Source: a virus. From it: 22,677 bases of DNA. Below are positions 14,928-16,247 of the stretch, piece by piece. A model generated the notes under the pieces. That model was not told where the DNA came from and did not search any database. It was given only the letters and a program-made list of their open reading frames with translations. A program made the translations under genes and the position numbers. The stretch lies in the IMG/VR virus record IMGVR_UViG_3300031974_000445, positions 1-22,677 of that record. One strand, 5' to 3'. The stretch's first letter is position 1. The number at the start of each line of letters is the position of its first letter.

Positions 14928-15299
14928 CTATGACAGATCTATGCTCACCTTAATTTCCCCAGCGTGTAAGTGCATAGACCGCTCTACAGGTTTGAAGCCA
15001 GCACGATCCAGTATATCCTTTGACGCTTCTAGCTGGACGTACTCAGACTTGGCACCTTTGGCTAGGTTCAGCAGCTTGCTTGCAGCCACGGTAGCATTAA
15101 GACCGAGCGTCTCAGTCACTCTTTGCATCATGTACTGCTGCACATGAGGCTGACGCAAAGCCTTACTGGCACTGACTCTACCAGATTCGCCTTCTGCGTA
15201 ACCGGCTTTGCCAGCAGCCTCACGCACGGTACATCCATCGGCTACAAGCGTATCCACCAAAGCAGTCTGTTTCTCGGTCAACTTAGATACATCAGTCAT
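14928..15299 (-). CDS. terS: Terminase small subunit (TerS)
   Basis: A 123-residue protein starting at the ATG at 15299, chosen because GAGGTT lies 6 nt upstream. A longer frame to 15347 would pass through the G tracts. It has an N-terminal helix-turn-helix (LTEKQTALVDTLVADGCTVR, then EAAGKAGYAEGESGRVSASK, residues 7-50) typical of phage small terminases that recognise the packaging site, a central oligomerisation helix (VTETLGLNATVAASKLLNLA) and an acidic C-terminus. It is the first gene of the leftward late block, directly behind the promoter at 15339-15367, and is separated from TerL by eight genes. Confidence 0.82.
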   Translation of the reverse strand: MTDVSKLTEKQTALVDTLVADGCTVREAAGKAGYAEGESGRVSASKALRQPHVQQYMMQRVTETLGLNATVAASKLLNLAKGAKSEYVQLEASKDILDRAGFKPVERSMHLHAGEIKVSIDLS

Positions 15300-15338: not shown

Positions 15339-15367
15339 TTTACACACTCACTCTGACAGCTTGTCAA
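15339..15367 (-). promoter_or_regulatory. Sigma70-like late promoter for the leftward block
   Basis: On the minus strand TTGACA (15367-15362, perfect -35) is followed after exactly 17 nt by TGTAAA (15344-15339, 4 of 6 to TATAAT). The start site would be near 15332, about 33 nt before the terS ATG. One arm of the CACTCACTCTG inverted repeat fills the promoter spacer, suggesting an operator. Confidence 0.65.
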
Positions 15368-15405
15368 CGCACAAAACAGTACAACTCAACTAAACAGAGT
15401 GAGTG
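15345..15405. repeat. 11-bp inverted repeat across the late promoter
   Basis: CACTCACTCTG (15345-15355) and its exact complement CAGAGTGAGTG (15395-15405) are separated by 39 bp. The left arm lies between the -35 and -10 of the late promoter. The 9-mer GAGTGAGTG recurs at 22595-22603 in the terminator at the other end of the early block. A regulator binding both arms with looping is one reading; a transcript hairpin is another. Confidence 0.55.
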
Positions 15406-15448
15406 AGTGAATAGCCTTGCTGCCTTTGCCGAATCCACATTTGCTAGC

Positions 15449-15720
15449 TTACCCAGTTCTCCTAGGCATCTGTCGTGGCCCTACCCTCGCCTAACTGCCC
15501 TATCCGAGCCACAGTCGCCCATCCAAGTAAAGGAGCAGGCCGCACCCTGCAGACGAGGTGCATAGCTGGTTCCCTTCCTTCTTCCGTGGCTGTCCTTTAC
15601 TTGGACGCTTCAGCCGCCCTGCAGGGCGTCCTCGCGGCAAGCTGTTCGTCAGTGGCTTCGGGGGCAGCATAAGGCGAGGGCAGTTCCTCGCCAGTTACCA
15701 AGGAGAACTAAAATGGGTAA
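15449..15720 (+). ncRNA. Structured leader RNA that masks a ribosome-binding site
   Basis: A GC-rich, gene-free stretch with nested complementary arms. Outer: TTACCC+AGTTCTCCT (15449-15463) with AGGAGAACT (15701-15709) and GGGTAA (15715-15720), which covers the Shine-Dalgarno sequence and start of the next gene. Next: CCCTCGCCT (15484-15492) with AGGCGAGGG (15672-15680). Next: CCGAGCCAC (15504-15512) with GTGGC-T-TCGG (15652-15661). Inside are two arms: TCCAAGTAAAGGA (15522-15534) with TCCTTTACTTGGA (15593-15605), extended by CAG/CTG and CC/GG and capped by GCACC/GGTGC; and GCTT-CA-GCCGC (15607-15617) with GCGGCAAGC (15634-15642). A local hairpin GGCGAGG/CCTCGCC (15673-15692) competes with the second helix. 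I recognise no known RNA family. I see no clear plus-strand promoter ahead of it. Confidence 0.6.
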
Positions 15721-16117
15721 GCAATCAAATGTAAATGGATTCGTCAAAGACACCAATTCTATCCACACCCTCACGGATAGAGTAACAAGACAATCAGTTC
15801 AATATCATGTTGGCAAGTTCATCGATCATCTCAAGTGGTCAATTGATCTCAAAGAAAAGAAAAAGATGGAGATCAACGAACTCGCTCAAGAGATGATCGC
15901 CAACAAAGATGGCACCATCGAGGGCAACGCACACTACGATGCAGATCAACTGGTTCAGATGGAGAACAACTGGAATTGGAACAACGATCAGCAAGCAGTG
16001 GCTGAGGAAATGCTTACATACTTCAAGCAAGCATCACAGCAGTTGTTCCCAGAAGAACATGCCAAGTCACAGCAGAACGCAACTCAAGCAGAAGCGTTCT
16101 TCACAAAGTCAGCGTAA
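15713..16117 (+). CDS. Hypothetical protein, first rightward gene
   Basis: A 134-residue hydrophilic helical protein (MGKQSNVNGFVKDTNSIHTL) with a Lys/Glu-rich helix (about 43-65), an Asn/Trp stretch (MENNWNWNNDQQ about 82-93) and a Gln-rich end. No domain is recognised. AAGGAGAACTAAA precedes the ATG. It stands alone between the structured leader and a strong terminator, so it is a separately controlled single-gene unit, which suggests an early or host-takeover role by inference. The codon use looks like that of the other early genes. Confidence 0.75.
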   Translation: MGKQSNVNGFVKDTNSIHTLTDRVTRQSVQYHVGKFIDHLKWSIDLKEKKKMEINELAQEMIANKDGTIEGNAHYDADQLVQMENNWNWNNDQQAVAEEMLTYFKQASQQLFPEEHAKSQQNATQAEAFFTKSA

Positions 16118-16129
16118 AGGGCTGAAACA

Positions 16130-16160
16130 GCCTCGCAGCTTCGGCTGCGGGGCTTTTTTT
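16130..16160 (+). terminator. Intrinsic terminator
   Basis: GCCTCGCAGC-TTCG-GCTGCGGGGC is a 10-bp stem (one T-G wobble) with a UUCG loop followed by seven T (16154-16160). It ends the transcript of the 134-aa gene 12 nt after the stop codon. A weaker overlapping hairpin GGCTG-AAA-CAGCC (16120-16132) lies just upstream and would compete. Confidence 0.92.
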
Positions 16161-16202: not shown

Positions 16203-16219
16203 AGTTGCAGCCTGCAACT
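16203..16219. promoter_or_regulatory. Iteron-like palindrome on the promoter -35
   Basis: AGTTGCAG-C-CTGCAACT, with 8-bp perfect arms. Its core GTTGC-N5-GCAAC has the same bases and spacing as the iterons at 19750-19806 inside the initiator gene. It covers the -35 box, so the replication initiator may also control this promoter (inference). Confidence 0.6.
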
Positions 16220-16233
16220 AACTATTATATACT
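16205..16233 (+). promoter_or_regulatory. Sigma70-like early promoter
   Basis: TTGCAG (-35, 16205-16210), 17-nt spacer, TATACT (-10, 16228-16233, 5 of 6). It lies directly after the terminator and before the 38-aa ORF and the DUF932 gene. A palindrome covers the -35 (16203-16219) and a second one starts in the -10 (16230-16247), so the promoter is very likely repressed or autoregulated. Confidence 0.75.
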
Positions 16234-16247
16234 GCAAGTATGCAGTA
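16230..16247. promoter_or_regulatory. Operator TACTGCA-N4-TGCAGTA, copy 1
   Basis: TACTGCAAGTATGCAGTA is a perfect 7-4-7 palindrome overlapping the -10 and start site. The same 7-bp arms and 4-bp spacing recur at 20539-20556, and a degenerate version is at 18608-18625. All three are inside or across promoters. Confidence 0.7.

Follow-up and report, generated by a model that had tools for sequence, protein, structure and literature searches.

Rod-like and self-silencing RNAs described so far

Obelisks are common in the ocean, GOLLD and ROOL RNAs are often tied to phages, and the hok system combines short local or 5'-3' pairing with an antisense RNA and a small membrane toxin. Obelisks are rod-like RNAs whose protein, Oblin-1, has about 200 aa (PMC11922315), while hok-type mRNA folds on itself in a way that holds back its translation (PMC11228461). 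GOLLD and ROOL are large structured non-coding RNAs of bacteria (PMC12286853), and cabRNA is a structured phage RNA from the terminase locus which activates CBASS and shows no sequence homology between phages (PMC10686824).

The stretch of DNA analysed here as a whole (the window; 22,677 nt, IMG/VR record IMGVR_UViG_3300031974_000445) is a fragment of a podophage contig. Its terminase, portal and major capsid genes lie on the minus strand (6.5-15.3 kb); from 15.7 kb onwards the plus strand carries the early and replication genes. The window TerL is 62.7% identical to that of the Pelagibacter phage EXVC031P Hodr, and no DNA similar to the window was found in the phage collection. In the divergent region between TerS and the first early gene, strand-symmetric self-alignment and folding identified a long hairpin, hereafter the rod, that extends from 15399 to 15774 and reaches about 60 nt into the early gene.

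Physically this element comes nearest to viroid and Obelisk rods, functionally to a hok-type message and by place to cabRNA, and none of these fits. The trait common to Obelisks, viroid-like and HDV-like agents and the phage element is an RNA of about 1 kb predicted to form an unbranched end-to-end rod, with small interruptions and an ORF of 130-200 aa. A rod of this kind comprising the whole element and its ORF is found in long-arm relatives of the window (L147, L156, L158, L174, L175 and others) and partially in the window itself. In contrast to Obelisks, however, the phage rod is encoded in a dsDNA genome together with terminase, portal and capsid genes, which separates it from RNA replicons. 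It is a linear hairpin with a tip, set in a context of promoter and terminator, and it shows no sign of RNA replication or ribozymes. The early proteins have no Pfam or PHROG family and model as a helical hairpin.

The likeness to hok lies in a start site closed by long-range pairing, as indicated by folding and covariation. Unlike in hok, the phage leader mirrors the gene start or even the entire gene, and a helical protein of 130-170 aa is encoded; that of the window is a soluble-looking helical hairpin, and no separate antisense gene was identified, so that no counterpart of the toxin and the antisense RNA of hok was found here. The rod shares with cabRNA that it is a structured phage RNA at the terminase locus without sequence homology between phages, but cabRNA has about 400 nt, belongs to the late strand within terS-terL and is an RNA that the host senses, with no known phage-serving fold. 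GOLLD and ROOL have complex ornate folds, form homo-oligomers and conserve sequence, whereas the phage rod is unbranched and has little sequence conservation. Scanning the window and eight long-arm relatives with the Rfam covariance models gave no match at the gathering score (best chance match 7.3 bits, E 0.8), in agreement with the first-pass annotation of this DNA, which had recognised no RNA family. No published description of such a hairpin was found in the literature searched.

The hairpin of the window and its surroundings

The hairpin was confirmed and has no equal in the window: in a strand-symmetric scan for self-complementarity it scored 45.3, compared with 14.8 for the next best place. 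The plus strand of 15440-15725 folded with -131.8 kcal/mol as against -99.1 ± 4.9 kcal/mol for shuffled sequences (z -6.66), none of the 200 shuffles being as stable; the reverse strand of the hairpin folds too (z -8.3). The first-pass annotation had proposed, from the letters of the window, a GC-rich nest of complementary arms over about 270 gene-free bases. All the arm pairs that it named were recovered, including a perfect 13-bp helix (TCCAAGTAAAGGA/TCCTTTACTTGGA), and the GC content is indeed about 0.60 across a 260-nt stretch of the hairpin relative to 0.40-0.48 in most of the window. The proposed extent holds for the core of the structure, but the actual hairpin is longer and enters the early gene (Table 1).

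Table 1. Features of the window at and around the rod.
Feature	Position	Strand	Basis or remark
Gene for the terminase small subunit (TerS), the first of the late genes; diverges from the rod	14928-15299	-	
Late leftward promoter TTGACA-N17-TGTAAA, left of the rod	15339-15367	-	
Left rod arm (5' side of the proposed leader RNA), resembling an antisense copy of leader and opening codons of the early gene	15399-15552	+	Symmetric self-alignment, folds
Tip region joining the two arms; in relatives it is different or replaced	15553-15618	+	
Right rod arm, running from the leader to within codon 21 of the early gene	15619-15774	+	Symmetric self-alignment, folds
Local 7-bp hairpin GGCGAGG/CCTCGCC (15673-15679/15686-15692); competes with pairing to 15484-15491	15673-15692	+	Sequence
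Shine-Dalgarno AGGAG (15701-15705) and ATG (15713-15715), inside the outer stem	15701-15715	+	Partners 15455-15463 and 15447-15453
First early gene, 134 aa, predicted helical hairpin	15713-16117	+	No PHROGs hit (single-sequence scan)
Intrinsic terminator 3' of the early gene	16130-16160	+	Sequence; equivalent hairpin in long-arm relatives
Separate rightward promoter TTGCAG-N17-TATACT, serving genes beyond the rod unit	16205-16233	+	

In the outer stem, the arm AGTTCTCCT pairs with AGGAGAACT over the Shine-Dalgarno (SD) sequence and TTACCC pairs with GGGTAA over the start codon, both as originally described. In folds, the SD paired with the left arm at a probability of about 1, and in an RNA begun at 15620, from which the left arm is absent, it was mostly unpaired. 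We predict that the start site in the rod is closed to ribosomes, and the base pairing itself is supported by covariation (see below). Both of the alternative pairings suggested for 15673-15680, with the distant left arm or within the local hairpin, are present in the sequence. The local hairpin is kept in three relatives (L021, L122 and L099) with one base-pair change, GGCGAGG/CCTCGCC becoming GCCGAGG/CCTCGGC, and it may represent a second state of the leader RNA, as the first-pass annotation proposed.

Upstream of its rod, the window yielded no canonical rightward promoter (the best score was 5.1, against a background median of 6.2), and none common to the relatives was found at the left end of the rod. 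A fair leftward promoter-like site lies right of the early gene at 16252-16224, so an antisense transcript is possible; Hodr likewise has a leftward promoter right of its early gene, and such promoters are not conserved among the relatives. Two palindromes at 16203-16245, GTTGCAGCCTGCAAC and CTGCAAGTATGCAG, overlap the early-operon promoter and an opposed TATAAT and are likely repressor operators. Directly downstream of the late promoter, C8-TTGTGTT-C8 (15315-15337) corresponds to two G8 tracts 7 nt apart on the late strand. Similar paired G-tracts are present in many relatives, L156 having a looser copy on the plus strand just right of its rod, and they are candidates for forming a G-quadruplex in the late mRNA, at its 5' end.

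The early protein is fast-evolving, and neither it nor its relatives matched Pfam or PHROG families. Profile comparison of the two early-protein groups detected no homology (hhalign probability 1.1), and both groups model as a helical hairpin. A fold search of the PDB gave only generic coiled coils (E at least 1), the best BFVD match is an uncharacterised phage protein (E 6e-4), and the Hodr early protein matched only Hodr.

Rods of related phages and their covariation

Searches with TerL and TerS yielded about 160 IMG/VR loci and 38 loci from genome contigs, giving 108 non-redundant loci with enough sequence. Self-alignment was performed under a strict gap scheme with shuffled controls (lax gap penalties let alignments run away). 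An inverted repeat scoring at least 35 was present at the equivalent place in 40 of the 108 loci, mostly from marine phages; the shuffled maxima for the first set of loci were 10-17. The rod is the single outlier of its genome, with scores of 45 in the window, 68 in Hodr, 148 in L049 and 138 in L066, the remainder of these sequences reaching about 16 at most. In the isolate Hodr it has 286 aligned pairs, of which 90% are Watson-Crick. A comparable repeat was not found in the more distant podophages HTVC010P, MEP301, CKB-S2 and Pmp11 (best scores 15-26). As regards the host, the matches in the genome collection were mainly contigs of uncertain binning. A GC-rich, prophage-like locus on a Caldovatus aquaticus contig (L180) has a 143-pair inverted repeat upstream of its TerS relative and is a possible distant case of a rod in a cultured bacterium.

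Ten loci have long arms of 426-547 aligned pairs (L093, L094, L049, L066, L117, L147, L156, L158, L174 and L175). Their right arm spans the whole early gene and ends 7-82 nt past the stop codon, mostly just past the intrinsic terminator, and in most of them the left arm starts near the -35 of the leftward late promoter. In the whole-element rods mentioned above (520-550 pairs) both gene and terminator lie within the right arm. The rod of the window is of a shorter class, extending over the leader and the start and through 21 codons.

Other strong folds take the place of one rod in about 35 of 80 loci, and where a single rod is absent the leader region is still extremely folded (median z -6.5). 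The loci of a different early-gene group (L105, L109, L159, L163 and similar) have no single rod and very stable multi-hairpin leaders (z to -14), which also contain no plus-strand helix of 20 bp or more. In L005, L006, L012, L015 and L019/L020 a further large hairpin, with the common motif GGCCGTTGCGACAGC...CTGACGGACGTT, lies between the main rod and TerS, at about 90-290 nt from the latter. The rod tips of L005, L012, L014, L015 and L023 contain an interchangeable hairpin module, AGCCCGCGCTT...GCGCAAGCGGGCT, nested at differing places.

Conservation and covariation of the arms had been named in the first-pass annotation as a test of the structure, and the arms do covary: their sequences diverge between lineages and their complementarity is kept. 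Close pairs of relatives showed 88 compensatory, two-sided changes that stayed Watson-Crick, together with 59 one-sided changes to A.C and 6 to G.T. The helix over the SD and the AUG is kept in about 15 loci, including the window, while codons 2-3 of the early gene vary (GGTAAG, ACCAAG, ACTAAG, TCAAAG and others) and the opposite arm changes to match.

The rods also differ between strands. Counting Watson-Crick and G.U pairs, no uninterrupted helix of at least 20 bp occurs on the plus strand among the 8130 pairs of the 40 rods, the longest having 19 bp; with shuffled interruptions 19.8 such helices were expected, and the minimum in 200 shuffles was 10. The minus strand of the same rods contains 32 of them (longest 31 bp). 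ViennaRNA folds of 83 loci, which are independent of self-alignment, gave 0 such helices for the plus strand and 37 for the minus strand. Read in plus-strand letters, A.C mismatches are 4.7 times commoner than G.U (559:119). Re-placing only the A.C mismatches produced 4-18 helices of at least 20 bp (mean 10.2), a result that stands in 28 non-redundant rods, and re-placing G.U left the helix counts unchanged. A.C mismatches act as helix breakers and are positioned where would-be long helices break, while G.U, which does not break a rightward helix, is not employed as a breaker. The ceiling is present in Hodr, L174 and L175 without an excess of A.C. Among unopposed bulge bases on the plus strand, A accounts for 0.37-0.43 and C for 0.13, and such an A-rich bias is usual for unpaired bases in structured RNA.

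Mutation bias was rejected as the cause of the A.C excess, as no strand skew at four-fold sites of neighbouring genes was big enough to account for it. The leftward strand, favoured at first on account of its better fold and the A.C excess, was set aside after the tests of helix runs, A.C placement and bulges; the reverse strand is the more stable in nearly all loci because A.C on the plus strand is G.U on the minus strand. Other mismatches are no commoner than A.C, so the minus strand could still account for part of the asymmetry. The strand-specific evidence nevertheless favours a rightward RNA, consistent with the rightward terminator and gene. Together with the covariation, it sustains the first-pass reading of a structured rightward RNA over the start of the early gene, the scale of which had been understated: the rod is family-wide and measures up to about 1.3 kb.

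A proposed self-silencing early message and its alternatives

The most economical account of these data is a rightward early message that serves as its own lock. Specifically, the locus probably encodes an early mRNA that is self-silencing, rod-shaped and below the RNase III limit, whose transcription, stability, timing and release we infer. Because the leader repeats the sequence after it in inverted form, the RNA would fold into a rod, the nascent gene zipping onto the leader while it emerges. The rod would keep ribosomes off the start site and would offer single-strand nucleases little to cut. Its interruptions (A.C, A.A, C.C and C.U mismatches and A-rich bulges) would keep continuous helices below 20 bp, so that the double-stranded RNA could persist below the RNase III limit. 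A helix of about 20 bp approximates the length needed by RNase III, and the putative match between this limit and the ceiling is one of length. The contacts of the enzyme with dsRNA extend as far as 10 bp from where it cleaves (PMC3386247). The stable, silenced message might be opened later by processing, by a helicase or by a phage or host factor; alternatively, transcripts initiating inside the tip might bypass the rod.

Hiding an SD needs tens of base pairs, not 500, so silencing in cis alone under-explains the long rods, and a role in trans becomes a serious alternative. The RNA could imitate dsRNA and act as a decoy for, or inhibit, a host factor that binds dsRNA (RNase III itself, an RNA-sensing defence cyclase or the like); the early protein would be its partner and the hiding of the ORF secondary. 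Arms of up to about 540 bp, far beyond the requirements of start-site hiding, would suit this role, as would a sequence that is free to change under a fixed shape and helix ceiling, the extreme folding of leaders at loci without a single rod, and a fast-evolving early protein without family matches. Phage RNAs can moreover engage defence, as the staphylococcal cabRNA from the terminase region does in activating CBASS (PMC10686824). However, cabRNA sits inside the late terminase genes, from which the rod RNA is divergent, no binding partner or defence link of the rod was found, and covariation is kept exactly at the SD and the AUG, where a pure decoy does not need it. We regard a primary role in trans as somewhat unlikely. 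The broader idea that DNA phages independently make HDV- or Obelisk-shaped rods, which would be nuclease-proof, gene-carrying and early, would act in trans against host dsRNA-handling or RNA-sensing defence, and would combine fast sequence turnover with strict shape, is possible and is put forward tentatively.

It is unlikely that the leftward strand is the functional molecule, whether as a long RNA (late leader or antisense) that runs through the early gene or as ssDNA of the minus strand, with A.C of the plus strand as a G.U pair. The better fold of the minus strand, the ratio of A.C to G.T and the leftward promoters that the window and Hodr have to the right of the early gene would agree with it, but the A.C sites behave as breakers and not as pairs, the bulges are RNA-like only on the plus strand (A-rich and C-poor, as opposed to U-rich on the minus strand), the arms usually stop at the rightward terminator, the leftward promoters are not conserved, and Hodr, L174 and L175 have no A.C excess. 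Template switching during replication, by which inverted repeats are known to be corrected, could rewrite one arm from the other and yield covariation without selection on the RNA. Such conversion may contribute to the covariation, as the compensatory pairs include coding positions. As the sole cause it is quite unlikely: it predicts neither the strand-specific 19-bp ceiling nor the non-random A.C placement, the A-rich bulges or the arms that stop at the terminator, and tests for mismatch strand symmetry and for random interruption spacing found neither. The Watson-Crick fraction is moreover about 0.7-0.9 and near-perfect long copies are absent, though conversion should yield some. RNase III is known to have a role in icaR control, and a regulatory leader might be cut by this enzyme to free the start site, in the manner of the lambda N leader or icaR. 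Bacteria offer a known case of translation controlled by UTR pairing in icaR (PMC3868564), and the SD of the phage rod is closed and opens without the left arm; yet the rods avoid helices long enough for ordinary cleavage, as the plus-strand folds of all 83 loci demonstrate, and no conserved processing site was identified, which makes cleavage of this type very unlikely.

The self-silencing message thus remains the reading that we prefer. The conservation of shape with almost no conserved sequence means that sequence-based RNA discovery would miss such elements, and the occurrence of the rod in an isolate, Pelagibacter phage EXVC031P Hodr, makes it testable. The rod would connect DNA phages with the physical logic that viroids and Obelisks follow. 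Its helix lengths bear an apparent imprint of RNase III, which would give a direct, quantitative footprint of dsRNA surveillance in bacteria under marine phage infection. If true, the self-silencing rod would represent a new type of construction for a bacterial message, in which a gene is preceded by its own antisense copy and folded as a rod.
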